Shown here: positions 425-11,256 of the stretch, piece after piece
Numbering within the stretch: position 1 is the first letter of the stretch
How the letters are laid out: the number at the start of each line of letters is the position of its first letter
From: a virus
Strand: one strand, 5' to 3'
IMG/VR virus record: IMGVR_UViG_3300034954_000540
Location: 1 to 32,204 of that record
DNA: 32,204 nt
Position numbers and translations under genes: made by a program
The notes under the pieces: generated by a model
What the model was told of the DNA's origin: nothing
Seen by the model: the letters and a program-made list of their open reading frames with translations, nothing else
Databases searched by the model: none

Positions 425-1684
425 TTGACCATCACTCTCCGTCCCCACCAAGCACGAGCACTCTCTGCAATGCAGGACGCTGACAAAGGTCAGGTTATCG
501 TGCCTACTGGTGGTGGCAAGACCATCATCATGATCGAACACGCCAAGCGCCTCATGGATGCTGCTGAGCGTCCTCTGACCTTTGTTGTGGTTGCTCCTCG
601 CATCCTGCTTGCTAATCAACTCTGCGATGAGTTCCTCGCCTTCCCTGGTGTTGTTCGTCCTGACCTTGTTCCTGCTCACGTTCACAGTGGCGAGACAAAG
701 CATTTCAGCACCACTAAGATCGAACGCATTTATATGTTCGACAAAATGTGTGCATCTATGAGCACACATCGTATCATCTTCACCACATATCATTCTCTTC
801 CTAAGATCATTGACAGTGGTATTTCTATCGACTGTGCATACTTCGATGAGGCACACAACAGTGTTGGTAAATCCTTCTTCGTTGGCACTGCTGCAACATC
901 CATGGTTGCTGATCGTTGCTACTTCTTCACTGCTACTCCTCGCATTTCTCGTCGTCACTCTCGTTCGATGTCTAATACTGACATCTACGGTGGCATCATC
1001 TGCAACGTTCCTGCTCCTGAACTCATTGAGCAGGGTCACATTCTCCGCCCCACGATTGTACCTTTCGAGACAGATGTCACTGAGCGTACAAAGCACAACG
1101 TCCACGATGTAGATGCTGACACTGTGCGTGACATTCTTGACAACCTTGATGAGACACATGCCAGCAAAGTTCTTGTTGCTGTGCCCTCTTCTCGTGTGTT
1201 GGGTAACATGGTATCTCGCACAACTCTGCTCCTTGACCTCAAAGAGCGTGGTTACAATGTGATGCACGTCACATCTAAGTTCGGTGCTATCATCGACGGT
1301 GTGAAGGTATCTCGTGAGGTATTCTTCGACACTCTTACAACATGGGGTAAAGAAGATGGTCGCAAGTTCATTGTTTTCCATTACAGTATCCTCAGCGAAG
1401 GTATCAACGTGCCTGGTCTCACTCACTGCATTCTGTTGCGTAACCTTAACGTAGTTGAGATGGCACAGACTATCGGTCGTGTTATCCGCCTAGATAAGGA
1501 AGATGCATCACGTTTGCGTACTGGTGAACTCACTGCATGTGAGTGGGGTTTCTACAACAAACCCACAGGTTTCGTGACTGTACCTGTCCACAAGACTTAC
1601 GGCAAGCACGTTGTCAAGCGTCTACAAAATGTTGTTGATGCTATCTTCGTCAAAGGCATTCCTCCCCTCTCACTTGTTGCATAA
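425..1684 (+). CDS. SF2 DEAH-box helicase (UvsW-like/type III Res-like)
   Basis: The 419-residue product carries the superfamily 2 helicase motifs in order: Walker A PTGGGKT (27-33), Ia VAPRILLANQ (57-66), DEAH (141-144), TATP (169-172), SEGINVPG (324-331) and QTIGRVIRL (348-356). It should be an ATP-driven DNA translocase or helicase. In T4-like phages, UvsW acts in branch migration, fork repair and the switch to recombination-dependent replication. The motif pattern also fits the Res subunit family, and the protein lacks the extra N-terminal domain I remember for T4 UvsW, so I leave the symbol blank. The start is TTG 425: an in-frame TGA lies at 410-412, and the next ATG (473) would remove the conserved LRPHQARAL Q-motif-like segment. 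There is no Shine-Dalgarno sequence. The stop overlaps the next start as TAATG. Confidence 0.85.
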   Translation: MTITLRPHQARALSAMQDADKGQVIVPTGGGKTIIMIEHAKRLMDAAERPLTFVVVAPRILLANQLCDEFLAFPGVVRPDLVPAHVHSGETKHFSTTKIERIYMFDKMCASMSTHRIIFTTYHSLPKIIDSGISIDCAYFDEAHNSVGKSFFVGTAATSMVADRCYFFTATPRISRRHSRSMSNTDIYGGIICNVPAPELIEQGHILRPTIVPFETDVTERTKHNVHDVDADTVRDILDNLDETHASKVLVAVPSSRVLGNMVSRTTLLLDLKERGYNVMHVTSKFGAIIDGVKVSREVFFDTLTTWGKEDGRKFIVFHYSILSEGINVPGLTHCILLRNLNVVEMAQTIGRVIRLDKEDASRLRTGELTACEWGFYNKPTGFVTVPVHKTYGKHVVKRLQNVVDAIFVKGIPPLSLVA

Positions 1685-2289
1685 TGGGTAAAGTACAAAA
1701 TCTATTTCCAAAGTGGTATTACCATGGTGAAGTAGCAAAGCATGAATCGCTAAAAGCACTGTTGCTGTATGAATTAGGTACAGCAACACTGACACAACCA
1801 AAAGAATGGAATTGTTCTGTTTCGTCGTCGTTTGAAAGTGACACGAATCAGGACGATTTTTCATGGCATAAGTTCAATGAGTATATTTCTGATAATTTCA
1901 TGGACATGCACATGCAACTGGGTGGGCGTGTCACCAGCGACATCAAAATGGTGGAAGCATGGATGAATGTATATAAGGAAGGACAATCGCAAGAGGTGCA
2001 TACACATTGTGGTGGTAATAATCCTGCATTCAGTTGTGCATACTTCTTACAGTATGATCCAGAGAAGGATGGAAAGTTCTTGTTCTATGATCCATCACAG
2101 GACATACATCATGGGTTCTTCTCTAAGCACTATCCAACAACAAATACATGGTTCCCTGATGTGAAGGAGGGTGATATAATTATCTTCCCTTCATATCTAC
2201 ATCATCAAGTGTCACCACAACGTGACACAGAGTGTGCAAGGATCACAGTCTCTGCTAACTTTACATTACAATCAGGCATACAACTATGA
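1684..2289 (+). CDS. 2OG-Fe(II) oxygenase-like protein 1
   Basis: The 201-residue protein resembles the putative 2OG-Fe(II) oxygenase family TIGR02466. Such enzymes use 2-oxoglutarate and O2 to hydroxylate a substrate. Visible candidate ligands are H106 and H108 in EVHTHCGG, a distal His (173 or 174) in IIIFPSYLHHQV, and R186 in ARITVSANF, which would bind 2-oxoglutarate. The segment WMNVYKEGQSQEVHTH leads into the core double-stranded beta-helix. The usual HxD/E is HxH here, as in three other copies in this window. It starts in a TAATG overlap with the helicase and ends in an ATGA overlap with a second oxygenase, so the three genes form one coupled cassette. The substrate is unknown. Confidence 0.75.
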   Translation: MGKVQNLFPKWYYHGEVAKHESLKALLLYELGTATLTQPKEWNCSVSSSFESDTNQDDFSWHKFNEYISDNFMDMHMQLGGRVTSDIKMVEAWMNVYKEGQSQEVHTHCGGNNPAFSCAYFLQYDPEKDGKFLFYDPSQDIHHGFFSKHYPTTNTWFPDVKEGDIIIFPSYLHHQVSPQRDTECARITVSANFTLQSGIQL

Positions 2290-2807
2290 GCGACGATATT
2301 ACAGTAATTGATGGATACTTTCCTGATTGGATTATAGATGATGTAGGTAACTATCTCTCAACAGATTTCCCATTCTTCTATAATAATACTCCCTATGGTG
2401 ACTATTCAAAGGCAAGATTCTGGGGTAATACTGTCATCAGAGACAATGAATTTACTCAGGAGACTCCTTGGTACTGGTTCTTCGCATACTTCAATGAGTG
2501 CATCATTAAAGATATATGTAAGGATCTACCTCTATCTCATGTCCATAGGTTATTGGTCAATGCACAAAATCCTGGGCATGTTAGTCAAACCCACACTGAT
2601 TTCAATCATGCCGCAACGTCAATCATATACCATGCTTATGGGGATAGTGGTGCTACGACATTTGCAAATGGTGAGAAAGTGGAATTCAAACAAGGTAGAA
2701 TTATCTACTTTGATTCAAGACTAGAACATGATGGCGAACCACCAACTAATGACATTCGTATCAGTCTTGGTGCTATCTGTCCACACAGGGGAGTCCACTT
2801 CTCCTAG
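2286..2807 (+). CDS. 2OG-Fe(II) oxygenase-like protein 2 (HxD type)
   Basis: The 173-residue product shows the classical facial triad of this superfamily: H103 and D105 in QTHTDFNH, H148 in DSRLEHDG, and R158 in DIRISLGA for 2-oxoglutarate. It is more like general prolyl-4-hydroxylase-type oxygenases than the four HxH copies in this window. The pattern GxATTFANGEKVEFKQGRI between the motifs fits beta strands of the jelly-roll. It overlaps the preceding oxygenase gene by ATGA and is the last gene before a late promoter, so it ends the helicase cassette. Substrate unknown; protein or small-molecule hydroxylation are both possible. Confidence 0.78.
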   Translation: MSDDITVIDGYFPDWIIDDVGNYLSTDFPFFYNNTPYGDYSKARFWGNTVIRDNEFTQETPWYWFFAYFNECIIKDICKDLPLSHVHRLLVNAQNPGHVSQTHTDFNHAATSIIYHAYGDSGATTFANGEKVEFKQGRIIYFDSRLEHDGEPPTNDIRISLGAICPHRGVHFS

Positions 2808-2811
2808 TGTC

Positions 2812-2819
2812 CATAAATA
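2812..2819 (+). promoter_or_regulatory. T4-type late promoter motif (CATAAATA)
   Basis: CATAAATA matches the NATAAATA late motif described for cyanophages and differs from T4 TATAAATA only at the first base. It lies 55 bases before the gene at 2875 and 4 bases after the previous stop. Transcription should begin about 6 bases downstream, at the foot of the hairpin at 2826-2844. Confidence 0.6.
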
Positions 2820-2825
2820 GTGGAG

Positions 2826-2844
2826 TACACGCCCTGAGCGTGTA
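2826..2844 (+). promoter_or_regulatory. Hairpin at the expected 5' end of a late transcript
   Basis: TACACGC (2826-2832) pairs perfectly with GCGTGTA (2838-2844) around a CCTGA loop. It begins about where a late transcript from CATAAATA 2812-2819 would start, and precedes a clear GGAG ribosome site at 2864-2867. There is no T run, so it looks like a 5'-end stabiliser rather than a terminator. That role is inferred. Confidence 0.5.
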
Positions 2845-2874
2845 TTATTACTAGGTAATCAACGGAGACAACAA

Positions 2875-3063
2875 ATGTACGGTGTTCGCCCCGCTCGCCT
2901 GACTCTCGACGAACTGTTTGCTGAGTCGCGTGAACTGCTCGCCAAGACCGCTCACAATGCTCCCCAGACCGAACCGCTGCCCATCGTGTGGTCCTGCGCT
3001 GAGGGTCGTTGGATCAACAACCCTGAGTACGCTACATTCAAGCACGGTAAGTTCCAGAAGTAA
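2875..3063 (+). CDS. 62-residue hypothetical protein, probably highly expressed late
   Basis: ATG 2875 follows a good Shine-Dalgarno sequence (GGAG, 2864-2867), a 5' hairpin and a late promoter motif. The codons look like those of strongly expressed genes (CGC, CTG, CTC, ACC, AAG), in contrast to the A/T-ending codons of the flanking oxygenases. The 62-residue soluble product has an N-terminal helix (LDELFAESRELLAKTAHNA) and a C-terminal part with WSCAEGRWINNPEY ending in lysines. I recognise no domain. The expression signals suggest a late protein needed in quantity, perhaps a minor virion or internal protein; that is inference. Confidence 0.7.
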   Translation: MYGVRPARLTLDELFAESRELLAKTAHNAPQTEPLPIVWSCAEGRWINNPEYATFKHGKFQK

Positions 3064-3083
3064 ACTATCACATAGAGGGTCTA

Positions 3084-3089
3084 TATAAT
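3084..3089 (+). promoter_or_regulatory. -10 box (TATAAT)
   Basis: A consensus TATAAT lies 46 bases before ATG 3136. The -35 position (3061-3066, TAAACT) is a poor match. A start near 3096 would leave GTG 3091 off the transcript, which supports ATG 3136 as the true start of the next gene. Confidence 0.45.
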
Positions 3090-3135
3090 TGTGTCTCCTG
3101 ACGCGAGACCTCCCCTCTTTCATTCTTCTATCATC

Positions 3136-3288
3136 ATGAGAATCGCCCTCGCTGCTATCATTGTTTTGATTGGTGCTAACATTGGCATCACTGCAATAAA
3201 CAAAGTGCAATCAATTCAAGATCAAAAGATGGATCGTCTATGTAAGATTGATCCTGATCTCTGTGACAACATCGATCCACGATCATGA
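3136..3288 (+). CDS. Small single-pass membrane protein, 50 residues
   Basis: From ATG 3136 the product begins MRIALAAIIVLIGANIG, one hydrophobic helix of about 20 residues. A polar tail with two cysteines (LCKIDPDLCDNID) follows. It may be an N-in single-pass membrane peptide or a secreted peptide with an uncleaved signal. A longer reading from GTG 3091 is possible, but the added residues are not hydrophobic or conserved-looking and the -10 box argues against it. The stop overlaps the next gene as ATGA. Small membrane peptides are common in cyanophages; whether this one affects lysis or the host membrane cannot be told. Confidence 0.6.
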   Translation: MRIALAAIIVLIGANIGITAINKVQSIQDQKMDRLCKIDPDLCDNIDPRS

Positions 3289-3485
3289 CAGGTTTACCAA
3301 GTTTCTTTAAGCAAACATCAGATAAACCGTATGATCGGCATAGATATAAGATATTCTGTGCCGATGGATCGGTAAAGATTGTTGACGACTACATGCAAGT
3401 AATTGAAGCATGGTGGAACTATGCTGACTATTGTGACCATGTAGAGATTATTGACGCAAAGACAAAAGGAGGCGGTTTCGCATGA
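3285..3485 (+). CDS. 66-residue hypothetical protein
   Basis: ATG 3285 overlaps the preceding stop as ATGA. The soluble product has a compact central segment, YKIFCADGSVKIVDDY then EAWWNYADYCDHVEIID, that looks like a small alpha/beta domain rich in aromatics. I do not recognise a named family. The C-terminus (KTKGGGFA) overlaps the Shine-Dalgarno sequence and start of the next gene, so the two are co-translated. Function unknown. Confidence 0.6.
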   Translation: MTGLPSFFKQTSDKPYDRHRYKIFCADGSVKIVDDYMQVIEAWWNYADYCDHVEIIDAKTKGGGFA

Positions 3486-3706
3486 CAACAGGGATTGATG
3501 TTCGTACCAAGGAATGCTATGTTCTTGAAGATGCTAAGAACAAAGTATTAGACTTGATGACCACATGTAAAGACATAAAGAGTGAGTATCTCCAAGGACT
3601 ATTAGACTCAATATACAACGAACTCGATCACCAACATGAACTGCTCAAATCCCCACACTTGTCCCAGTTGGCAACAGAGCAACCTAGACATATTGGGGAC
3701 GGTTGA
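3482..3706 (+). CDS. 74-residue hypothetical helical protein
   Basis: ATG 3482 has one of the strongest ribosome sites in the window (AAGGAGG, 3466-3472, 9 bases before the ATG) and overlaps the previous stop as ATGA. The product is mostly helical with heptad-like spacing (VLDLMTTCKDIKSEYLQGLL) and no membrane segment. Its stop codon lies inside the -35 box of the promoter that follows, so this cassette ends exactly where the next unit begins. Function unknown. Confidence 0.6.
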   Translation: MTTGIDVRTKECYVLEDAKNKVLDLMTTCKDIKSEYLQGLLDSIYNELDHQHELLKSPHLSQLATEQPRHIGDG

Positions 3707-3731
3707 CATCGACAACCCCAACGTATATAAT
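3703..3731 (+). promoter_or_regulatory. Consensus sigma-70-type promoter
   Basis: TTGACA (3703-3708) and TATAAT (3726-3731) are both exact consensus with a 17-base spacer. The next start codon (3760) lies 28 bases after the -10 box. It should be read by the host housekeeping RNA polymerase without phage factors and would give early transcription of the lysozyme-like gene and perhaps the oxygenase behind it. Confidence 0.8.
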
Positions 3732-3759
3732 CTGATTTTATCCTACGAATCTGACAAAC

Positions 3760-4338
3760 ATGATGATGTTCGACATGCCCCCAGCACCGAGGATTGAGTG
3801 TGTTGGTTGCACTCCTGCTGAGGTGTTGGTAACACAAACTCTCTGGGATCGTGGTATTACTGATAAGAATGCCATTGCAGTTGTGCTTGGCAATATCAAA
3901 CAAGAGAGCAACTTCAAGCATAATATATGTGAGGGAGGTGCAATCGTACCTTACGATCAATGTTTAAGTGGTGGGTATGGTCTCATTCAGTGGACCTCAC
4001 AGAACAGATATGACGGACTTGCCCATTTTGCCCGCGCATACGGGGGAGATCCTAATACATTTGAGACACAACTTAGGTACATGGTTAATGAACCTCAGTG
4101 GACCAGATTTGAACTCTCATTGAAAGGTAGGGGACAAACTGTTCAGTATTATATGAAGGAAGCATATTACTGGTTGGGATGGGGTATCCATGGCAATCGT
4201 ACCACATATGCATATGACTACACTAAAAAATTGAAACCTATTGTTCCTGATGAGCACAACACTGTTCCCGATCAAGTACCACCAAGCACACATTCACAAT
4301 CACAGGGAGACATTCGGATCCCTTTTGGAGTCTGCTAG
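3760..4338 (+). CDS. Phage tail lysozyme-like peptidoglycan hydrolase
   Basis: The 192-residue product fits the phage tail lysozyme family (Phage_lysozyme2): a helix TLWDRGITDKNAIAVVLGNI, then IKQESNF with E49 as the likely catalytic acid, and GYGLIQWTSQNRYDGL (73-88). These enzymes cleave the glycan strands of the cell wall during entry or lysis. There is no signal peptide. Three ATG codons in a row (3760, 3763, 3766) make the exact start uncertain. A consensus promoter lies just upstream. The last 30 residues (Pro/Ser/Gln-rich) are encoded in the overlap with the next oxygenase gene and look like read-on sequence rather than domain. Confidence 0.8.
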   Translation: MMMFDMPPAPRIECVGCTPAEVLVTQTLWDRGITDKNAIAVVLGNIKQESNFKHNICEGGAIVPYDQCLSGGYGLIQWTSQNRYDGLAHFARAYGGDPNTFETQLRYMVNEPQWTRFELSLKGRGQTVQYYMKEAYYWLGWGIHGNRTTYAYDYTKKLKPIVPDEHNTVPDQVPPSTHSQSQGDIRIPFGVC

Positions 4339-4837
4339 GCATCTCCTTACTGATGCTGAGGGTCGGTGGAATTGTAGTGTTCACACGACTTATTTTGAAG
4401 AGAAAGATGTCGTCCCGCCCGAAGAACTTGGACAAGTCCTAGCACCTTATCTGTATCAGTATTTCCCTCCTGATTGTGACATTGAAATTGTAAACTCATG
4501 GTTGAATCTGTATAACAGTGGACATGCACAAGAACCACATCATCATGTAAACTATCCTGAGTTCGTGAACTTCTCTGGTGTGATCTTCATTCAATTCGAT
4601 AAGGATAAGGATGGACGATTCTATTTTGAGAACATGAACTTAGATCATACAATCCTAGGTTACACACACATTTTCAAACAATCACCAGTGCATCATCCTG
4701 ATGTTAGTGAAGGCGATCTAATTGTGTTCCCTTCGTTTGTACGACATGGCGTAAGATTGCAGAAACATGACACTAATCGTTTGACGCTAAGTTTCAATAT
4801 GAATGTGACACCTCGCGAACTGGACCACGACTGGTAG
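4250..4837 (+). CDS. 2OG-Fe(II) oxygenase-like protein 3
   Basis: From ATG 4250 the product is 195 residues and starts MSTTLFPIKYHQ, which fits the usual N-terminus of the TIGR02466-like family. Candidate metal ligands are H97 and H99 in EPHHHVNYPEF and H166 in VFPSFVRHGV; R177 in NRLTLSF would bind 2-oxoglutarate. FSGVIFIQFDKDKDGRFYF closely parallels oxygenase 1 (CAYFLQYDPEKDGKFLFY), so these two are the closest pair by eye. The gene begins 89 bases inside the lysozyme-like gene in another frame. An in-frame TTG at 4241 would add only three residues. No Shine-Dalgarno sequence is seen, so translation may depend on ribosomes from the upstream gene. Confidence 0.75.
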   Translation: MSTTLFPIKYHQAHIHNHRETFGSLLESARHLLTDAEGRWNCSVHTTYFEEKDVVPPEELGQVLAPYLYQYFPPDCDIEIVNSWLNLYNSGHAQEPHHHVNYPEFVNFSGVIFIQFDKDKDGRFYFENMNLDHTILGYTHIFKQSPVHHPDVSEGDLIVFPSFVRHGVRLQKHDTNRLTLSFNMNVTPRELDHDW

Positions 4838-4854
4838 ATTTCTGCCCGTGGTCC
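4822..4854 (+). terminator. Hairpin across the oxygenase 3 stop codon (terminator-like, no T run)
   Basis: GGACCACG (4822-4829) pairs perfectly with CGTGGTCC (4847-4854) around a 17-base loop that contains the TAG stop. The sequence after it (TGTATTG) lacks a T tract. It may be a weak terminator or a 3'-end-protecting structure. Confidence 0.4.
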
Positions 4855-4878
4855 TGTATTGTATGTTTATTGATACAA

Positions 4879-5475
4879 ATGACCATGATTCTCGAATCTT
4901 TTCTCACAACATCTTTTCAGAATGTTCGCTCTTCCAAGCGTACTGACGAACTGCATTCTGTGCTGCTCGATGAGGTCTTGAATGCTAATCCTGACCTCGC
5001 TGAGTATACTTGGAAGTTTGAATATAAACTGCAAGAGGATGCATTCGGTGGCACATTTGATATTGATATTGCAGGATTTAATGATGATGGAGATCTTGTC
5101 GTTGCTATTCTTGCCAAGGCAATCAACAGCAACGTGAACAAGAATATCAAGAACTATGCAAATACCACTATCGGTGAAGCGGCACGTTTGTATTACGCTC
5201 CCAAGTGTAATACCATCGAGAAGATTCTCTTCGTTAGTGTTCTCCCTCGCATTGCACCTCGTTTCAACACAGCAGGCGAAGTGACTGGTTTCGATGATGT
5301 TATCAGTGCAAAGAATCGTACTAAGTTGGATGATGTTCTGCAACGTCAATATCATGGCACTGTTGATACCATCGACCTGTATTTTGATATTGATAACGTA
5401 AAGCAACAAACTAGCAAGGCAGACTATCAAGAAATCGGTGTGAGCAACCTTACACCATGCCCCATGATCTGGTGA
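4879..5475 (+). CDS. Hypothetical protein, possibly a degenerate PD-(D/E)XK-like fold
   Basis: The 198-residue product is soluble. Its central part, GGTFDIDIAGFNDDGDLVVA then ILAKAINSNVNKNIKNYANT, has the outline of a PD-(D/E)XK nuclease: an acidic residue ending one strand (D61 or D63), a turn, then a strand carrying xxK (K80). The expected acid two residues before the Lys is L78, so the site is incomplete if the fold is right. GEAARLYYAP and KILFVSVLPR follow. Possible starts are ATG 4879 and ATG 4885, with TTG 4870 just upstream; none has a good ribosome site. It stands alone between two hairpins. The nuclease idea is weak; the gene itself is secure from its length and coding character. 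Confidence 0.6.
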   Translation: MTMILESFLTTSFQNVRSSKRTDELHSVLLDEVLNANPDLAEYTWKFEYKLQEDAFGGTFDIDIAGFNDDGDLVVAILAKAINSNVNKNIKNYANTTIGEAARLYYAPKCNTIEKILFVSVLPRIAPRFNTAGEVTGFDDVISAKNRTKLDDVLQRQYHGTVDTIDLYFDIDNVKQQTSKADYQEIGVSNLTPCPMIW

Positions 5476-5483
5476 CTGTGCCA

Positions 5484-5523
5484 ATCGGATAACCTGCACA
5501 CAATCGGTTGTGTGGGGTCCGAT
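5484..5523 (+). ncRNA. Nested two-stem RNA structure
   Basis: Inner stem CACACAA (5497-5503) with TTGTGTG (5508-5514) closes a TCGG tetraloop. An outer stem, ATCGGA (5484-5489) with TCCGAT (5518-5523), encloses it across an internal loop of 7 and 3 bases. It occupies almost the whole gap between two genes and has no T run. It could be a processing site, an mRNA-stabilising element or a weak terminator. Confidence 0.5.
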
Positions 5524-5559
5524 CTCATGTAATCTAACAGTGTCAAAGAAATTTGTTCA

Positions 5560-5808
5560 ATGCAACTCTCCAATTCCATCTGCATTGTTGACTACTTCCC
5601 CGAAGCATTTATTGAGGGTGAGGGTGTCAAACGTTTCATCAAGCGTGTTACTTTCCCTTCTGATTATGGCAAGGATCAACAATCTTGGTCCGTAATCACT
5701 AAACTCACATTCACTAACGAAGTGAATGAGCGCATTGCCTCTGGTGCTAGTATCACTGGATTCAATACAGAAAAGTGTCCTGATTCTTACCGTCCTGCAT
5801 TCTGCTGA
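5560..5808 (+). CDS. 82-residue hypothetical protein
   Basis: ATG 5560 begins 84 bases after the previous stop, downstream of the nested hairpin. The product (MQLSNSICIVDYFPEAF then VKRFIKRVTFPSDYGKDQQ) is soluble with mixed charge and no recognised domain. No strong Shine-Dalgarno sequence precedes it. The stop TGA is followed directly by the ATG of the next gene with no spacer. It opens a run of five small, tightly packed genes reaching 6812. Confidence 0.55.
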   Translation: MQLSNSICIVDYFPEAFIEGEGVKRFIKRVTFPSDYGKDQQSWSVITKLTFTNEVNERIASGASITGFNTEKCPDSYRPAFC

Positions 5809-6000
5809 ATGAAATCAACGACTCAAATGTATCTCGTGAGACTCTACGATAAGTTCACGATGATGCAAGTTACTCGCACAATGCCCACTAAACCTACCAC
5901 AAATAAAGGTAGGATTGCACAACGCAATCGAGTATTAAAGTGGGCACAGAATACTTATCCCGATCAAATCCGCTACGAGGTTGAAGCATTCAATGACTAA
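5809..6000 (+). CDS. 63-residue basic hypothetical protein
   Basis: ATG 5809 abuts the previous stop. The product is basic (MKSTTQMYLVRLYDKFTMMQ, then TTNKGRIAQRNRVLKWAQNT), with several Arg and Lys residues in its second half, compatible with nucleic acid binding, although no known motif is seen. Its last eight bases are shared with the start of the next gene (ATGACTAA). Function unknown. Confidence 0.55.
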   Translation: MKSTTQMYLVRLYDKFTMMQVTRTMPTKPTTNKGRIAQRNRVLKWAQNTYPDQIRYEVEAFND

Positions 6001-6244
6001 GGACAACATCATCGACCGCGACCAACTGCAAGACGACTACATCAACCGCGTGATTGATGGTCTTGATATTAAAGATCTCATTGCACTGGTTTATGATCAA
6101 CTGGACCACAATCTTGACTCCTATTCTTGTGAAGAACTGATTGAAGAGGTAAATGAGCATTATCCTGACTTATTGGAGCAGGATGATGTAAACATCTCCG
6201 ACCTCGAATCTACTGCATCGGATCCGATGGGCATCGGTAAGTAG
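5993..6244 (+). CDS. 83-residue acidic hypothetical protein
   Basis: I place the start at ATG 5993, inside the end of the previous gene (8-base overlap). A TTG at 5981 in the same frame would add four residues. The product is acidic and helical: DYINRVIDGLDIKDLIALVY followed by YSCEELIEEVNEHYPDLLEQ. I recognise this type of protein as recurrent in T4-like cyanophages but know of no assigned function. It has no membrane segment. It follows a basic protein of similar size, and an interaction is possible but not shown. Confidence 0.65.
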   Translation: MTKDNIIDRDQLQDDYINRVIDGLDIKDLIALVYDQLDHNLDSYSCEELIEEVNEHYPDLLEQDDVNISDLESTASDPMGIGK

Positions 6245-6339
6245 TGGACACCTCGCCAAGTGGTTTTCCAGTTTTGTATCATGGTGAACTACCGCGACCG
6301 CTCGGATCTGCAATACTAAGATCAATCAAACGAAACGAC

Positions 6340-6579
6340 ATGGCAACGCCGATCTTCACTCTCTCCCCTGAAATGCAAGACGCTTGGGATGATGTAATGA
6401 TTCAAATGGAAGCATTTGTTAATGATACAAATGCAGACATCGATATGGCATACGATTGGGTGTGTGAGATGCTCGATATTGATTCGTTTGTTGATAACGA
6501 GATTGCATGGGATTCTTTCTACAACTGCTGGGAATCTTGCGACAATCGTAACGACCTCAACACATTTCAAATTGCATAA
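6340..6579 (+). CDS. 79-residue acidic hypothetical protein
   Basis: From ATG 6340 the product reads MATPIFTLSPEMQDAWDDVM and continues as an acidic, Trp- and Asp-rich helical protein. The same frame opens further up at GTG 6244, which would give 111 residues and overlap the previous stop. The extra N-terminal segment is proline- and arginine-rich and unlike the rest, so I prefer the ATG. If ATG is right, 95 bases (6245-6339) are untranslated. The stop overlaps the next gene as TAATG. No known domain. Confidence 0.55.
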   Translation: MATPIFTLSPEMQDAWDDVMIQMEAFVNDTNADIDMAYDWVCEMLDIDSFVDNEIAWDSFYNCWESCDNRNDLNTFQIA

Positions 6580-6812
6580 TGTACGACATTTTTAACAACC
6601 TCAACCAAGAACTAGCAAACCTTTCTATTTACAAACCAGTGACCAATCCTTACGTCGAAAATCTCATCGAAATGGGTTATGATCGTGCAGACTGTGAGAC
6701 AGTTGCAGTTGCAGGAGTTGAGAAGACTTTCCCGCTCGAAATCTATGGTCGAGTTTACAACACACAAGAGGAGTACGATGAGGCGCTCGCTGATTTCATA
6801 AACGGACAATAG
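6579..6812 (+). CDS. 77-residue hypothetical protein
   Basis: The ATG overlaps the previous TAA stop (TAATG). The product is acidic and probably helical, with the segment NLIEMGYDRADCETVAVAGV resembling a UBA-like helical turn pattern, then EIYGRVYNTQEEYDEALADF. The UBA resemblance is only visual. It is the last of five packed small genes; a late promoter motif follows 7 bases after the stop. Confidence 0.55.
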   Translation: MYDIFNNLNQELANLSIYKPVTNPYVENLIEMGYDRADCETVAVAGVEKTFPLEIYGRVYNTQEEYDEALADFINGQ

Positions 6813-6819
6813 TCCTCCG

Positions 6820-6827
6820 CATAAATA
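6820..6827 (+). promoter_or_regulatory. T4-type late promoter motif (CATAAATA)
   Basis: Identical to the motif at 2812-2819. It lies between two genes, 21 bases before ATG 6849, giving a very short leader. No -35 element is expected for this promoter class. Confidence 0.6.
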
Positions 6828-6848
6828 CATCAACTTTCCGCAGATTTA

Positions 6849-7172
6849 ATGCTCGTCATCACCAACTCCGCTCGCCGCAATGATCTTTTCTACTATCACG
6901 AGGATGTATTCGTGACGGATGATCGCGTCGTCTCCAATAACATTCAGCAACCCGCCTTCACTATTACTGAGGACCGCAGTGGTCCGCACATCGGTGACAA
7001 TTATGCTCCTAAGTACCGTGTCAACCAGCGCACAGAACTCCATGCTGGCGTGTACATTTACGAGCGTATCTTCGGTGCTGATACTGTTGCTGATGCTAAG
7101 GAACTCATCGAAGAATATATCAACGAAGAAGTGACACAATACATCAAAAAGTATCAAGAATTCGACCGATGA
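6849..7172 (+). CDS. 107-residue hypothetical protein, probably late
   Basis: ATG 6849 follows a late promoter motif. The product is soluble: an N-terminal beta-rich part (RRNDLFYYHEDVFVTDDRVV), then YRVNQRTELHAGVYIYERIF and a C-terminal helix (AKELIEEYINEEVTQYIKKY). No catalytic motif or membrane segment is visible. Codons are biased toward C-ending forms, as in other probable late genes here. Transcribed alone between a late promoter and a hairpin. Function unknown. Confidence 0.6.
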   Translation: MLVITNSARRNDLFYYHEDVFVTDDRVVSNNIQQPAFTITEDRSGPHIGDNYAPKYRVNQRTELHAGVYIYERIFGADTVADAKELIEEYINEEVTQYIKKYQEFDR

Positions 7173-7193
7173 AACCAGTTGGATAAGTGGCAC

Positions 7194-7217
7194 AACGGGA
7201 TGGCACAGTGTCCCGTT
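7194..7217 (+). terminator. Terminator-like hairpin with a following TATATT box
   Basis: AACGGGA (7194-7200) pairs with TCCCGTT (7211-7217) around a 10-base loop. Only three T residues lie at the 3' side, so termination would be weak. TATATT at 7224-7229 follows, without a -35 match, and may start the next unit. The same hairpin-then-TATATT layout recurs at 9429-9479. Confidence 0.4.
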
Positions 7218-7278
7218 TGCCTGTATATTAAAGAAGTGGAGGGGATTTCACTTCACAAACGTCCTTAACTTTCTGATC

Positions 7279-7620
7279 ATGCGTAAAATCGAGCAGGCAA
7301 TGAACACCGCCATCGCTAACAGCACCAACTGGCAATCTGGTAACACTTCTGTTCACTTTAACGAAGAAGAACAGATCAGCATCGTGAGACTTCACGGCAA
7401 CAAGATCGCTGAGATCGGTGAAGGTTTCATCCGCTTATTTGATGGCGGTTGGCAGACTAACACCACCAAATCTCGCCTCAATGCTATCCTTGCTGCAAAT
7501 GGTGCAGACAATGATAAAGTTTTCCAGAAGAACTTTGATTGGTTCGTACAAATGGACACCGCACAAGGTGTGTCCGTTGTTCCTTTCTTTTCTTCAATGC
7601 GTCTCGGTAACTGGTCATGA
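7279..7620 (+). CDS. 113-residue conserved hypothetical protein
   Basis: The product starts MRKIEQAMNTAIANSTNWQS and contains NTSVHFNEEEQISIVRLHGN, then GGWQTNTTKSRLNAIL and FQKNFDWFVQ. I recognise this type as a conserved protein found in cyanophages and some other phages, without a defined function. It has no membrane segment, and the conserved TTKSRLNA segment could bind nucleic acid; that is speculation. No good Shine-Dalgarno sequence lies next to ATG 7279, although a GGAGGGG stretch occurs about 35 bases upstream. The stop overlaps a tiny frame as ATGA. Confidence 0.7.
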   Translation: MRKIEQAMNTAIANSTNWQSGNTSVHFNEEEQISIVRLHGNKIAEIGEGFIRLFDGGWQTNTTKSRLNAILAANGADNDKVFQKNFDWFVQMDTAQGVSVVPFFSSMRLGNWS

Positions 7621-7676
7621 GCATCATTATTCTCTCCATTCGATTCATCATCAGTCACCAAACTTTCCTCCCATGA
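7617..7676 (+). CDS. Possible 19-residue coupling peptide
   Basis: ATG 7617 overlaps the previous stop as ATGA and its own TGA (7674-7676) overlaps the next ATG in the same way. The peptide, MSIIILSIRFIISHQTFLP, is hydrophobic. It exactly bridges two genes, so it may be translated mainly to carry ribosomes to the next start. It may equally be chance. Confidence 0.3.
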   Translation: MSIIILSIRFIISHQTFLP

Positions 7677-7831
7677 CTAAACTCTTACTCGTCGGAATCA
7701 TCGCCCTTCTTTGCTACAACTCCCCAGAGGTTCGTCACACTATTGCAGACGGATTAGAGGCAACTGCTGATACTATCCGCCCCACGAGTAAGTTACAACG
7801 ACAGATCAATGAGGCGTTTAGAGTACACTGA
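7673..7831 (+). CDS. 52-residue small membrane or secreted protein
   Basis: ATG 7673 gives MTKLLLVGIIALLCYNSPEV, a hydrophobic N-terminal helix, then an amphipathic stretch (HTIADGLEATADTIRP) and a basic end. It could be a single-pass membrane protein or carry a signal peptide; the Cys after ALL is not in a good lipobox. I recall very similar small proteins beside photosynthesis or accessory genes in cyanophages, with no known function. It is coupled to the 19-residue frame upstream and ends 35 bases before a TATAAT box. Confidence 0.65.
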   Translation: MTKLLLVGIIALLCYNSPEVRHTIADGLEATADTIRPTSKLQRQINEAFRVH

Positions 7832-7866
7832 GAGCGCCTGCAATCCCCCTGAAATATGTTATACTA

Positions 7867-7872
7867 TATAAT
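7867..7872 (+). promoter_or_regulatory. -10 box (TATAAT) before oxygenase 4
   Basis: Exact TATAAT within CTATATAATGTAG, 31 bases before ATG 7904. The -35 place holds a C-rich run and does not match. An activator-dependent promoter is possible. Confidence 0.4.
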
Positions 7873-7903
7873 GTAGCATTCACGCCCTATTTAATTCAAC
7901 ATC

Positions 7904-8530
7904 ATGGCAGACAAAGAGATTAATTTAAGTGACCAACTTGATGACGCAATTCAGTTTGAAACCTATGGACTATTCATGTCCCCCGTTACCAAGTATGATC
8001 TCTCAGATTTCGTTACTCCTGTACTCCAATGGATGAGAAATGAGGATTTCGTTGATCATGACAGACAAACAATTTGCCACAATGTTCAACAGATTGGACC
8101 AACAAATAAGATCCTCGAAGATCTCCCCGATCTCAAATCTGCTCTCCTTGATGTAGCACGAAAGCATAACGAATCAGGTCTCTCGTATGCATCCAACTTT
8201 GCCATCTCTGACTGTTACATTGAACTAGCAAGTAAGGGAGCATTGTATGCACCACACGAGCACTCTAATTGTTTATTCTCTGGCACGTTCTTCATTAACT
8301 ACATCCCCGAGTCGCATTCTTTTCTAAAATTCAAAAGAAATGTGATGTCACAAATGTTCCCTGTAATGATGCTCCCATTTGAAACAATGACCGCATTCAA
8401 TCTACAAGAGGCAACTGTTCCTTACTCTAATGGGGATGTATTAATCTATCCGTCCAATATGACCCATGGTTATGAGTCTAATCCCACAGATGATCGCATC
8501 ACATTAACATTCAATGTCATCCCAGTTTAG
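7904..8530 (+). CDS. 2OG-Fe(II) oxygenase-like protein 4
   Basis: The 208-residue product has the HxH-type layout: H118 and H120 in YAPHEHSNCLFSGTFF, H188 in IYPSNMTHGYES, R198 in DDRITLTFNV. The spacer between the two His groups is longer than in oxygenases 1 and 3 because of an inserted stretch around KFKRNVMSQMFPVMM. The N-terminal 100 residues contain WMRNEDFVDHDRQTICHNVQ, which may shape the substrate pocket. It is expressed from its own TATAAT box and is the only oxygenase here that does not overlap another gene. Chemistry is expected to be 2-oxoglutarate-dependent hydroxylation; substrate unknown. Confidence 0.72.
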   Translation: MADKEINLSDQLDDAIQFETYGLFMSPVTKYDLSDFVTPVLQWMRNEDFVDHDRQTICHNVQQIGPTNKILEDLPDLKSALLDVARKHNESGLSYASNFAISDCYIELASKGALYAPHEHSNCLFSGTFFINYIPESHSFLKFKRNVMSQMFPVMMLPFETMTAFNLQEATVPYSNGDVLIYPSNMTHGYESNPTDDRITLTFNVIPV

Positions 8531-8535
8531 TATAG

Positions 8536-8579
8536 TTTTCCACAGGATTGCGGAACGTTTTCCACATTCTTGTGGATTA
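8536..8579 (+). promoter_or_regulatory. DnaA-box-like cluster next to AT-rich DNA
   Basis: TTTTCCACA, the DnaA-box consensus reported for cyanobacteria, occurs exactly at 8536-8544 and 8558-8566 (22 bases apart). A related box, TAATCCACA on the minus strand, lies at 8571-8579. AT-rich sequence (TTAATTAAATACTAAAATAAA) begins within the last box. Boxes two and three also form a small hairpin (TCCACA/TGTGGA, loop TTCT), so a terminator after oxygenase 4 is an alternative reading. A third exact copy lies at 8904-8912. Confidence 0.45.
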
Positions 8580-8698
8580 ATTAAATACTAAAATAAATCT
8601 ACCTCTCTGTTCTATTTGTTTCATTAATGCCTCGAAAGTATGTCACCTTGGAGTGTATACGATCACGCCCGAGTTGTCAACACTAACAGGACCGCTGA

Positions 8699-8736
8699 GA
8701 AACTGTCACAAATGCCTTGACATTACTGACAGTTTC
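8699..8736. promoter_or_regulatory. 10-bp inverted repeat flanking a -35 box (operator-like)
   Basis: GAAACTGTCA (8699-8708) and TGACAGTTTC (8727-8736) are perfect inverse complements separated by 18 bases, and the -35 box of the promoter lies between them. The symmetry and placement fit a repressor or activator site. It could also fold as RNA only if transcription starts upstream. Confidence 0.5.
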
Positions 8737-8745
8737 ATACATAAT
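8717..8745 (+). promoter_or_regulatory. Sigma-70-type promoter
   Basis: TTGACA (8717-8722) is exact and CATAAT (8740-8745) matches five of six -10 positions, with a 17-base spacer. Transcription would start about 8752, 32 bases before ATG 8784, and would serve the packed small genes up to 9439. Confidence 0.7.
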
Positions 8746-8783
8746 TACATTGTTCTCTGATCGACACTTAATCGACCAATCTC

Positions 8784-8963
8784 ATGGGTAGGACTTACAA
8801 ACGAAACGACCTGCATAACTCTCGACGCCCCAAATCTATTAGGGAAAAGAGACAGTATGGAGGCAACGATTCTCGCCGCTACACTGATGACAATTCCACA
8901 GACTTTTCCACAGGAAAACAACAACAACGCAACCAACGATTCAACCCAGAAGACTATGAATGA
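8784..8963 (+). CDS. 59-residue very basic protein
   Basis: ATG 8784 follows the promoter and runs to TGA 8961-8963. The product is rich in Arg, Lys, Asn and Gln: MGRTYKRNDLHNSRR, then KSIREKRQYGGNDSRR and GKQQQRNQRF. It has no hydrophobic core and should be extended and nucleic-acid- or acid-protein-binding. I recall similar MxRTYKRND-type small proteins in T4-like cyanophages. Part of its sequence encodes a DnaA-box-like TTTTCCACA (8904-8912). Its last eight bases overlap an acidic gene, which argues for co-translation. A competing frame from ATG 8857 covers much of the same DNA, but only its end (from 8956) looks like a gene. Confidence 0.65.
   Translation: MGRTYKRNDLHNSRRPKSIREKRQYGGNDSRRYTDDNSTDFSTGKQQQRNQRFNPEDYE
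8904..8912 (+). promoter_or_regulatory. Isolated TTTTCCACA (DnaA-box-like)
   Basis: A third exact copy of TTTTCCACA, on the same strand as those at 8536 and 8558, with a weaker AATTCCACA directly before it (8892-8900). It lies within the 59-residue gene, where it encodes part of DFSTG, so coding constraint is an alternative explanation. Confidence 0.3.
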
Positions 8964-9084
8964 ATTTGAGATTACTGACTGGATTGATGACATCCTCGAC
9001 AGTGAAGATGACGACGATGGGTTAGTATATGAGGACATGTATTACGAGACTATTGACACACAACCCACAGGTGATGTACAATGA
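8956..9084 (+). CDS. 42-residue very acidic protein
   Basis: From ATG 8956 the product is MNEFEITDWIDDILDSEDDD and onward, with 14 Asp or Glu among 42 residues and no Lys or Arg. It overlaps the end of the basic gene by eight bases and the next start by ATGA. A longer reading from ATG 8857 exists, but it would run antiparallel in character (Ala/Asn/Gln-rich) through the basic gene. The basic-acidic pairing suggests the two proteins bind each other, or that the acidic one mimics DNA; both are inference. Confidence 0.55.
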   Translation: MNEFEITDWIDDILDSEDDDDGLVYEDMYYETIDTQPTGDVQ

Positions 9085-9248
9085 GCAAAGTAATCCAATT
9101 AGACACAAATCCCCCTGTAAGTGTACAGATCTGGGAGGACCGTCGTAAACACTTTTGGCGATACGATTACGACGGTTGTCCTAAGTATGGACCATTCCCT
9201 AACTATCAACAAGCACTCACAGATTCACTCCGCTATTCTACACAATGA
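9081..9248 (+). CDS. 55-residue hypothetical protein
   Basis: ATG 9081 overlaps the previous stop as ATGA, and TGA 9246-9248 overlaps the next start in the same way. The product (MSKVIQLDTNPPVSVQIWED, then RRKHFWRYDYDGCPKYGPF) is soluble and aromatic-rich, about the size of a single small beta domain. No named domain is recognised. Coding is supported by coupling on both sides. Confidence 0.6.
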   Translation: MSKVIQLDTNPPVSVQIWEDRRKHFWRYDYDGCPKYGPFPNYQQALTDSLRYSTQ

Positions 9249-9439
9249 GCATCCCTGCTAAGTATGAAGCACTGCTAGATCTTTATGATGCTGGTAGTCT
9301 CCCACCTGATGAACAGATTGAGTTAGCGCAGTTCCTAATTGACACTGGACTGAGTGAACAACTCTCTCAATATACACAGTGGTGCGACTACCTAATCATG
9401 GAAGGATTCTGTTATGATGTAGTCACTGGGGACAGTTAA
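9245..9439 (+). CDS. 64-residue conserved hypothetical protein
   Basis: The product, MSIPAKYEALLDLYDAGSLP followed by DEQIELAQFLIDTGLSEQLS and CDYLIMEGFC, is acidic and helical. I recognise the pattern of a short protein in which LYDxGSLxxxEQIELAQxLIDTG recurs in phages, of unknown function. It ends the packed set that begins at 8784, and a hairpin overlaps its stop. It may act in early takeover, judging from the sigma-70-type promoter, but nothing in the sequence shows how. Confidence 0.65.
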   Translation: MSIPAKYEALLDLYDAGSLPPDEQIELAQFLIDTGLSEQLSQYTQWCDYLIMEGFCYDVVTGDS

Positions 9440-9447
9440 TCTGTCCC
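9429..9447 (+). terminator. Hairpin across a stop codon (terminator-like)
   Basis: GGGACAG (9429-9435) pairs perfectly with CTGTCCC (9441-9447) around TTAAT, and the TAA stop of the preceding gene sits at the stem-loop junction. No T run follows. TATATT at 9474-9479 lies a little downstream and may start the next transcript. Confidence 0.45.
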
Positions 9448-9536
9448 ACTATGTGACAGTATCCGTGCGCCCGTATATTAATAAGTACCGTCTTTCTAAG
9501 CTATAACAGTATCCCAGAGCGGTCGAGATATTATTC

Positions 9537-9692
9537 ATGTTTCCGTTTCCCCCACCCACAAAAAATTTCCCAGGTAAAAACATCTCCCTCAGAGATGAAC
9601 TCACATACATCTCCCTATGTCTCACAACGACCGCCCAGATCATCGCCGCCCATATAACTATGAGGTTGCAGAGGACTGGAAGGAATGGGTAG
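9537..9692 (+). CDS. 51-residue possible membrane peptide overlapping the hydrolase start
   Basis: ATG 9537 gives MFPFPPPTKNFPGKNISLRD, then ELTYISLCLTTTAQIIAAHI and a basic tail (TMRLQRTGRNG), ending at TAG 9690-9692. A proline-rich start, a hydrophobic stretch and a basic end make a plausible small membrane peptide. It overlaps the NlpC/P60-like gene by 76 bases in another frame. It fills a gap that otherwise has no gene. Being next to a wall hydrolase, it could help lysis or tail assembly, but I cannot show it is translated. Confidence 0.45.
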   Translation: MFPFPPPTKNFPGKNISLRDELTYISLCLTTTAQIIAAHITMRLQRTGRNG

Positions 9693-10162
9693 GTCGCCCC
9701 TGGCCCCAGGCGTTCCGCAATAGAGCACTGGGAGGGTGTTACCAGGTAGTCAGAGACTTTTACAAACATTACTATGATAGGGATCTGTTTGACTACCCAG
9801 CAACACGAAAGTACCTGTTTGAGAATCATCTAATCGAAGAAGAGGTTCAGAGGCAGGGGGGCGCTATCACAGTCTACAAAGGAACACTATGGGAACCCAC
9901 ACCCATAGAGGATATGGAACTAGGGGACGTAATGATCATGAGACTGTTCTACGATCGCCTAGAAGGCGGTTATACTTGGAAGGAGGGGAAAACATGCAAT
10001 CACTGTGGTATATACCTCGGAGATGGATTCATGCTACACCAACCTGCACATGAAAAGTCCCAGATAACCGATATCATCCGACAGACTTATTGGGGCGACA
10101 ATACAGAGGTCGTGTTACGTTTAAGAGATCGTAAAAACATCAGACCCTATATAAAGACATAG
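9617..10162 (+). CDS. NlpC/P60-family peptidoglycan hydrolase
   Basis: The 181-residue product has the NlpC/P60 layout: C41 in GGCYQVVRDFYKHYYDRDL as nucleophile, MELGDVMIMRL as the strand before the His, H129 in NHCGIYLGDGFMLHQ as the base and H141 as the likely third residue. These enzymes are cysteine peptidases that cut the peptide stems of peptidoglycan; in phages they occur in tail tips or as endolysins. There is no signal peptide. Together with the lysozyme-like protein at 3760 the phage would cut both sugar and peptide bonds. The gene is followed closely by the AbrB-like and oxygenase genes and the virion block, which favours a tail-associated role. Confidence 0.8.
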   Translation: MSHNDRPDHRRPYNYEVAEDWKEWVGRPWPQAFRNRALGGCYQVVRDFYKHYYDRDLFDYPATRKYLFENHLIEEEVQRQGGAITVYKGTLWEPTPIEDMELGDVMIMRLFYDRLEGGYTWKEGKTCNHCGIYLGDGFMLHQPAHEKSQITDIIRQTYWGDNTEVVLRLRDRKNIRPYIKT

Positions 10163-10177
10163 TAGCATATATTGCAC

Positions 10178-10345
10178 ATGTCGAAAAGATTCACACTACC
10201 CGTAGAGGTAGACGAAGAGGACAACTACTTCATCACCCTCCCTCAGGAGATTCTGGATGAGATGGGATGGTATGAGGGGATTACCTTAGACTGGTCTGAG
10301 GATATTGATGGTTCTATCATTCTAAAAAAATCCGAAGACGCCTAA
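10178..10345 (+). CDS. AbrB/MazE-like small protein, 55 residues
   Basis: ATG 10178 to TAA 10343-10345 encodes MSKRFTLPVEVDEEDNYFIT, then LPQEILDEMGWYEGITLDWS and a closing strand GSIILKK. This follows the swapped-hairpin pattern of AbrB/MazE/SpoVT proteins: strand, Leu-Pro-x-Glu-Ile-Leu-x-x-x-Gly-Trp, a Gly turn, then beta strands. Such proteins are dimeric DNA binders, as regulators or antitoxins. No toxin gene lies beside it and it is more acidic than a typical DNA binder, so it may bind protein instead. It is too short to show further domains. It lies 15 bases after the hydrolase gene. Confidence 0.65.
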   Translation: MSKRFTLPVEVDEEDNYFITLPQEILDEMGWYEGITLDWSEDIDGSIILKKSEDA

Positions 10346-10363
10346 AAAATCTGCGTGACCCTT

Positions 10364-11008
10364 ATGACACTTGAAGACTGCCCTGGCAGAAGGTTTGGTA
10401 CATCCGACAAATTGTACTGGTGGCGATCGTGGGAACCGCGTACCCGCTTTGCTCCTTTGATTGATTGTCCGCTATGGGTCGATACCATACGAGAAGAGGC
10501 AGTTCAAAAAATTCTTTCTCGCTACTCTATGTTTCAGGGTAAGAAGTGGGATGAGTATAATTACTTTAAGGATGATCCTGTCTCCTTTATGGAGATCCTT
10601 GCATCCATATACTCTCAGTATTGTGCAGAGTTAAAGACTCCACTACCTGAGGGATTGTATATCAGGGGATGGTATAACGTCCTTAGACCTGGTGAGTACC
10701 TTCCTGTACATCACCACAGCATTCACGAGAACACGTTCCTGTCTGGTAACCTCTTGCTGACGGATAGTAAGATACCAACAGAGTATACTGTTCCATTGTA
10801 TTCAACATATGGGGGCAACTTCAAACCCCCTAGTAAGGCAGGCACAATAACTATCTTCCCCTCATGGGTAGAACATAAGGTGGAGACAAATGAATCAGAC
10901 CATGTTAGAATATCATTGGCATGGGATCTATATACGTGGGAGGGCATGATGTATTGCCGCGACCACTTCCCTGACGATGAAATGATGTTATCAGTTCCTT
11001 TCCTATGA
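10364..11008 (+). CDS. 2OG-Fe(II) oxygenase-like protein 5
   Basis: From ATG 10364 the 214-residue product reads MTLEDCPGRRFGTSDKLYWW. GTG 10355 in the same frame would add three residues. Candidate ligands are H116 and H118 in VHHHSIHENTFLSGNL, H171 in IFPSWVEHKV and R182 in HVRISLAWDL. The Trp-rich N-terminal part and WYNVLRPGEYLPVHHH distinguish it from the other copies. It ends in an ATGA overlap with the coiled-coil gene that leads into the 1490-residue structural gene, so it is expressed with virion components. That placement makes a virion protein a candidate substrate, though this is inference. Confidence 0.74.
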   Translation: MTLEDCPGRRFGTSDKLYWWRSWEPRTRFAPLIDCPLWVDTIREEAVQKILSRYSMFQGKKWDEYNYFKDDPVSFMEILASIYSQYCAELKTPLPEGLYIRGWYNVLRPGEYLPVHHHSIHENTFLSGNLLLTDSKIPTEYTVPLYSTYGGNFKPPSKAGTITIFPSWVEHKVETNESDHVRISLAWDLYTWEGMMYCRDHFPDDEMMLSVPFL

Positions 11009-11256
11009 ATGAAGACAAAGAGTTCCTTGATGTATACAAGGAGCATATGGAGATGATCGGTAAAGGTTTAGAGAACCTTAGCAACCGTATCAACACTTTG
11101 GAGAAGGCATTTGGAAGAATGCCAGAACCTGGTGCAAACATGATCAAGTACAAACCAGAGGGGTATGAGGACTACCTCAACATGCGGGAACTACTGGATG
11201 ATCTGTATGTGCGTCTAAATATGTTGGAAGAGCGCATCAAAGTCCTAGAACCTTAA
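11005..11256 (+). CDS. 83-residue coiled-coil protein
   Basis: ATG 11005 overlaps the oxygenase stop as ATGA. The product is mostly two heptad-patterned helices, MIGKGLENLSNRINTLEKAF and LDDLYVRLNMLEERIKVLE, joined by a Pro/Gly turn (RMPEPGAN). It should form a coiled-coil oligomer or a helical hairpin. Its TAA stop overlaps the start of the large structural gene (TAATG), which suggests a one-to-one partner such as an assembly chaperone or a small virion connector. No signal peptide or catalytic motif. Confidence 0.65.
   Translation: MNEDKEFLDVYKEHMEMIGKGLENLSNRINTLEKAFGRMPEPGANMIKYKPEGYEDYLNMRELLDDLYVRLNMLEERIKVLEP

Follow-up and report, generated by a model that had tools for sequence, protein, structure and literature searches.

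Five divergent 2-oxoglutarate/Fe(II) oxygenases, probably stand-alone protein hydroxylases, in a cyanomyophage 'oxygenase island'

T4-like cyanophages carry multiple genes for 2-oxoglutarate (2OG)-Fe(II) oxygenases. Sullivan et al. recorded 1–5 copies in 14 of 16 genomes (PMC3037559), and larger numbers are given for S-CREM1 (10 copies; PMC9964418), for S-SCSM1 (24 copies; PMC9602691) and for S-SZBM1 (nine copies; PMC9146016). In Nanhaivirus ms29, four oxygenase open reading frames are consecutive (ORF213–216; PMC10436341). The stretch analysed here, referred to as the window, is a 32,204-base IMG/VR record (IMGVR_UViG_3300034954_000540) from a marine T4-like cyanomyophage of the Kyanoviridae. 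It resembles these expansions, in which many divergent 2OG oxygenases are found per genome, some of them in runs, and it bears five such genes, termed Ox1 to Ox5. The window is a 32-kb piece, so the oxygenase count does not give the total of the whole phage. On balance, it is proposed that this 'oxygenase island' encodes five independent Fe(II) oxygenases that are probably stand-alone protein hydroxylases, each with a target of its own.

All five genes are confirmed as real at the positions proposed in an earlier note on this DNA: open reading frames, profile matches and motif are present in each case, and each product is predicted to have the 2OG-Fe(II) oxygenase fold (Table 1). The start of Ox3 is an ATG within a longer frame. 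Ox1, Ox3, Ox4 and Ox5 pass the Pfam gathering cut-off for 2OG-FeII_Oxy_5 (PF13759; 27 bits), which Ox2 fails. No significant Pfam match was obtained for Ox2, PF13640 included, and its assignment comes from phrog_274 and from the 2OG-Fe(II) oxygenase profile phrog_81. None of the five reaches the cut-off of the TIGR02466 family (62.5 bits), the top score being 46.7 for Ox1. Furthermore, none has a Pfam match at E ≤ 1 to AlkB, TET/JBP or other nucleic-acid oxygenase families, and no sixth oxygenase was found when the window was scanned with PF13759, phrog_81 and PF13640.

The AlphaFold2 model of Ox1, with a predicted local distance difference test (pLDDT) score of 79, has as its top fold matches 3BVC and 2RG4, followed by FtmOx1, PolD and PHD2, with P4H lower. 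Entries 3BVC and 2RG4 are uncharacterised solved members of PF13759/TIGR02466, and share with Ox1, Ox3, Ox4 and Ox5 both the sequence family and the HxH...H...R motif. No cellular relatives of Ox1 were confirmed in GTDB genomes, and PADLOC returned a weak generic 2OG match for Ox1, generic helicase matches and nothing more.

Residues expected at the active site were compared in a motif alignment of 172 phage oxygenases, comprising the five from the window and 167 from 15 isolates. The first motif His is present in 172/172 proteins, the distal His in 170/172 and an Arg or Lys at the 2OG position in 171/172; the second motif position is occupied by His (90), Asp (71), Glu (10) or Asn (1). Broken Fe(II)/2OG sites in most of the five were named in the earlier note as the sign that would speak against it, and these residues proved intact in 5/5, each window protein keeping the complete H-x-(H/D)...H...R. 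Among orthologues, the motif is kept in 13/13 for Ox2, 14/14 for Ox3 and 14/14 for Ox5, while for Ox1 the His residues are kept in 10/10 and Arg186 is invariant. The motif of Ox4 is kept in 9/9, apart from two 46%-identical homologues with Phe at the second His; these two (L151:8001-8624 and L152:8001-8624) retain the distal His and the Arg. Altered sites (HxN/Q/T, distal Tyr) were also seen in S-MbCM6 (33700; L050) and S-ShM2 (37663; L097), and the proteins concerned are possibly non-catalytic.

Ratios of non-synonymous to synonymous substitution rates (dN/dS) for Ox1–Ox4, measured against S-WAM1 and contig orthologues in pairs without saturated dS, are ~0.02–0.3, and these four genes are therefore under purifying selection. 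For Ox5, it is the invariant motif at 46–69% identity, and not dN/dS, that suggests constraint. Judged by their sequences, the five oxygenases are probably working enzymes.

The 172 proteins were placed in a maximum-likelihood tree, built by a quick method with support from the Shimodaira–Hasegawa-like approximate likelihood ratio test only, in which each window oxygenase falls with its S-WAM1 orthologue in a clade of its own. These clades also contain proteins from P-RSM6, S-SZBM1 and P-SSM7 (Ox1), P-RSM6, S-SZBM1 and P-TIM40 (Ox2), P-RSM6 (Ox3), P-RSM6, S-SZBM1 and P-TIM40 (Ox4), and S-WAM2, S-SM1 and S-RSM4 (Ox5). Tree paths among the five span 1.79–4.88, compared with 0.13–0.48 (mostly <0.3) to the S-WAM1 orthologues; their separation thus long predates the split of these phages. 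The phylogeny bears out two earlier suggestions, namely that the five did not arise by simple duplication and that Ox1 and Ox3 are the closest pair (35% identity, z 32, path 1.79, every other pair exceeding 3.4).

Synechococcus phage S-WAM1 (NC_031944; Kyanoviridae, Sokavirus) is the nearest named relative, with 80.5% identity over 43% of the window's first 25 kb. All five oxygenases occur in identical order at 40.9–50.8 kb of its genome, at 65.9–84.4% identity, and the helicase, lysozyme-region, g11005, T1490, gp25 and gp6 genes are also common to both, so that the two loci differ only by sequence divergence. The Ox1–Ox5 order is likewise kept in a 187-kb contig, IMGVR_UViG_3300021364_000001. 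In RefSeq, three of the five S-WAM1 genes are named 2OG-Fe(II) oxygenase, the Ox2 orthologue is named DNA endonuclease V and the Ox4 orthologue is hypothetical.

Fifteen cyanomyophage genomes, which were taken as relatives of the five proteins and are not a random sample, were searched with phrog_81 and phrog_274. The 15 isolates hold 169 oxygenase genes, 7–22 per genome, in line with the premise that T4-like cyanophages carry several; T4 itself gave one weak match. Counting phrog_274 genes is part of the reason why these totals exceed earlier ones. The maximum per isolate in a span of 9,325 bases is 2–7 genes, with at least five in 9/15, and S-WAM1 has the five oxygenases of the window in identical order. 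The view that five oxygenases so close together are exceptional consequently falls, and the oxygenase density of the window is ordinary for Kyanoviridae.

Random placement within the window brings all five genes inside 9.3 kb in 2.4% of trials. Clustering also exceeds uniform placement in most of the 15 isolates, and oxygenase islands are therefore characteristic of the family. The window begins mid-island, as the stretch from 33.5 to 50.8 kb of S-WAM1 contains at least nine such genes. Several contigs similarly have more oxygenase matches 4–5 kb upstream of the helicase gene that precedes Ox1. Genes annotated as 'ferrochelatase' were noticed within the oxygenase runs of S-SM1, S-RSM4 and S-CAM8 (L011, L012 and L017).

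The five enzymes divide at the metal site. Ox2 has the classical triad HxD/E...H, with His103, Asp105 and His148 present in 13/13 orthologues. Ox1, Ox3, Ox4 and Ox5 have a His at the usual position of the metal-binding carboxylate, and so lack the acid of the classical 2-His-1-carboxylate site. In the 172-protein tree, a single clade of 91 holds all 90 HxH proteins together with one HxN protein. The HxH signature also occurs in 29/29 bacterial PF13759 members whose motif region aligned, as well as in 3BVC and 2RG4; the literature searched gave nothing relevant on the HxH site or on these two structures. Tentatively, 2OG-FeII_Oxy_5 enzymes may bind iron through three His residues, a distinct site that could permit chemistry other than plain hydroxylation.

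The family of Ox2 is covered by phrog_274 (denV, T4-GC 100), which is labelled 'DNA endonuclease V' in PHROGs and RefSeq. Relatives of Ox2 bear this name in S-WAM1, P-RSM6, P-SSM7, S-MbCM6, S-SM1, Syn19 and P-SSM2, and HxD...H...R is present in the alignment in 7/7 of these genes. The profile phrog_274 has zero matches in T4, the source of genuine endonuclease V. The genuine family, PF03013 (Pyr_excise), has matches in T4 and in 9/15 cyanophages, none of them at phrog_274 positions, and no match in Ox2 or anywhere in the window. Among five phrog_274 members tested against PF13640, two pass its cut-off (P-SSM7, 31.7 bits; S-MbCM6, 39.9 bits).

The Ox2 model, which is of low confidence (pLDDT 64), is matched by Foldseek to BaP4H (5IAT/5IAV) and PHD2 with probability 1.00 and E ~1e-5, and to Pseudomonas putida P4H (4J25/4IW3) also with probability 1.00. 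Prolyl hydroxylases head the list of fold matches, and one TET-like entry is found at rank 50. Ox2 shares the HxD...H...R motif of PHD/P4H-type prolyl hydroxylases and may share their fold, but has only ~12–17% sequence identity to them. Endonuclease V was accordingly ruled out as the identity of Ox2, given that phrog_274 has no T4 match, that PF03013 genes lie elsewhere and that the labelled genes have the oxygenase motif. The label is wrong, since the real PF03013 genes of these phages occupy other positions and Ox2 itself looks like a prolyl hydroxylase.

This result bears on conflicting statements in the literature. A 2010 review described denV as lacking in cyanophages (PMC2984593), Sullivan et al. 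listed it in 13 genomes (PMC3037559), and the S-CREM1 paper reported that true pyrimidine-dimer glycosylases had been overlooked (PMC9964418). The statements are reconciled by the present result that the genes examined under the name 'denV' encode oxygenases, with genuine endonuclease V genes located at other places.

In the proposed mechanism, each oxygenase would be a small, stand-alone cytoplasmic enzyme of double-stranded β-helix fold, which would use O2 and 2OG to add a hydroxyl group to a side chain, most probably one of a protein. Each would act on its own target, either a phage tail or baseplate protein or a host protein; separate substrates for the five are plausible. Fe(II)/2OG-dependent hydroxylation is suggested by established knowledge of the family and by the conserved Arg. 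A protein substrate is favoured because the closest folds after 3BVC and 2RG4 include PHD2, BaP4H and P. putida P4H, the last solved with EF-Tu.

Several points weigh against this proposal. The usual metal-binding carboxylate is missing in 4/5 oxygenases, the Ox2 model is of low confidence, and for Ox5 every distant pair has a saturated dS, the single close pair giving a dN/dS of 0.54 from very few changes. That the substrates are proteins, one per enzyme, is something we infer. No residue of T1490, the baseplate-region protein encoded downstream of Ox5, tracks Ox5, which weakens the case for the two as an enzyme–substrate pair. Finally, the running text, as distinct from the table, of the S-SZBM1 virion proteome paper names no oxygenase among the proteins detected (PMC9146016); as far as that text goes, this fits enzymes that work inside the cell and are not particle-borne.

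A narrower form of the proposal, in which the oxygenases are a virion maturation set that hydroxylates tail and baseplate proteins from adjacent genes, is possible though rather doubtful. Ox5 overlaps g11005 by 4 nucleotides and g11005 overlaps T1490 by 1; the three occur together, in this order, in 22/22 Ox5-bearing loci, and T1490 lies upstream of PAAR-like, gp25 and gp6 genes. Oxygenase clusters often adjoin tail fibre or baseplate genes elsewhere, as in P-SSM7, S-MbCM6, S-SM1, S-CAM8 and P-SSM2, a closeness that other genes of these genomes may share. Moreover, nine loci lack Ox5 but keep g11005–T1490, namely seven contigs, P-RSM6 and P-TIM40. No alignment column of T1490 separates the Ox5-bearing (20) from the Ox5-lacking (4) sequences, a small sample with many near-identical members, and T1490 as an Ox5 substrate identified through co-variation was weakly rejected. 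Coupling to a neighbour is therefore not evidence of substrate.

Neighbour coupling itself was only partly upheld. The helicase and tail lysozyme genes pointed out in the earlier note are real, and the AbrB-like gene seems so; in P-TIM40, the corresponding position is occupied by a gene annotated as AbrB/MazE/SpoVT. The claim that each oxygenase is coupled to a different neighbour stands for helicase–Ox1–Ox2, for Gp96–Ox4, where the Gp96 gene precedes Ox4 in most loci, and for Ox5–g11005–T1490. The lysozyme–Ox3 link is looser and not consistent, as Ox3 is missing from S-SZBM1 despite a lysozyme match there, and P-RSM6 and several contigs carry Ox3 but no lysozyme match. No counterpart of the perfect sigma-70 site at 3703 was found in orthologous loci, and a conserved promoter for lysozyme–Ox3 was rejected on this ground. 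Genes of the oxygenase locus behave as cassettes, gained or lost singly.

Table 1. Oxygenase genes and neighbouring features of the window.
Feature	Coordinates	Strand	Evidence and remarks
SF2 helicase (ResIII/DEAD, phrog_16)	425..1684	+	Stop overlaps Ox1 start by 1 nucleotide
Ox1, 2OG-FeII_Oxy_5 oxygenase	1684..2289	+	PF13759 54.7 bits; HxH...H...R (H106, H108, H174, R186)
Ox2, PHD/P4H-like oxygenase	2286..2807	+	phrog_274 1.3e-28, phrog_81 2e-4; HxD...H...R (H103, D105, H148, R158)
Sigma-70 promoter TTGACA-17-TATAAT, perfect	3703..3731	+	Ahead of lysozyme and Ox3; 1 match, 0.02 expected
Phage tail lysozyme (PF18013, phrog_512)	3760..4338	+	89-nucleotide overlap with Ox3 start, different frames
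Ox3, 2OG-FeII_Oxy_5 oxygenase	4250..4837	+	PF13759 47.4 bits; HxH...H...R (H97, H99, H166, R177)
Kyanoviridae Gp96 homologue (PF23790)	7279..7620	+	Upstream neighbour of Ox4
Ox4, 2OG-FeII_Oxy_5 oxygenase	7904..8530	+	PF13759 36.9 bits; HxH...H...R (H118, H120, H188, R198)
AbrB-like small protein, 57 residues	10172..10345	+	Upstream of Ox5; assigned by eye from sequence
Ox5, 2OG-FeII_Oxy_5 oxygenase, optional gene	10364..11008	+	PF13759 44.9 bits; HxH...H...R (H116, H118, H171, R182)
g11005, 83-residue conserved protein (phrog_699)	11005..11256	+	4-nucleotide overlap with Ox5
T1490, 1490-residue structural/baseplate-region protein (phrog_22792)	11256..15728	+	Part like baseplate wedge phrog_719

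The helicase–Ox1–Ox2 linkage recurs in S-WAM1, P-RSM6, 17 contigs and S-SZBM1, the last with one gene between Ox1 and Ox2. It could indicate a single DNA-processing operon, with the oxygenases acting on nucleic acids in repair or base modification, and cyanophage oxygenases located by uvsX/uvsY have been proposed to be AlkB-like (PMC2984593 and PMC9146016). This role is unlikely: operon position by itself is weak evidence, no nucleic-acid oxygenase family is matched in Pfam at E ≤ 1, and the folds nearest to Ox2 are led by prolyl hydroxylases.

Sullivan et al. proposed in 2010, from multiple copies and NtcA sites, that such enzymes mainly consume the 2OG pool to succinate, and thereby shift both nitrogen signalling through NtcA and the energy metabolism of the host (PMC3037559). 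Here this appears very unlikely, as one enzyme would be enough for bulk turnover, yet there are five old lineages, each with orthologues. Most members of the superfamily need the prime substrate for full turnover, which likewise argues against a pool-draining role. A further alternative, that a single gene was recently duplicated in tandem to give functionally redundant copies, might be suggested by the proximity of the genes and the shared Pfam family of 4/5, but is refuted by the tree, with its five distinct orthologue clades and paths of 1.8–4.9 against 0.13–0.48.

Elsewhere in the window, a tandem repeat rich in Gly/Asp lies at 18552–18680, within the gp6 baseplate wedge gene. One open frame of >4302 codons runs from 19298 to 32203 and leaves the window end; its S-WAM1 homologue is annotated at 58804–79017 (~6.7 thousand residues). 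T4-late-type ATAAATA is not in excess in the window (five matches, 4.4 expected), and neither tRNA nor Rfam searches found anything.

What deserves to be passed on from this analysis is the annotation error together with the HxH signature; the cluster adds to a pattern already in the literature. The 'endonuclease V' label sends DNA-repair inference to the wrong cyanophage genes, and oxygenase counts come out too low. The HxH signature divides phage oxygenases into two halves, and is open to a single metal-binding test. Among the five syntenic, divergent enzymes, Ox5 is naturally present or absent beside one baseplate gene, and the set offers a ready-made contrast from which a first substrate might be identified.

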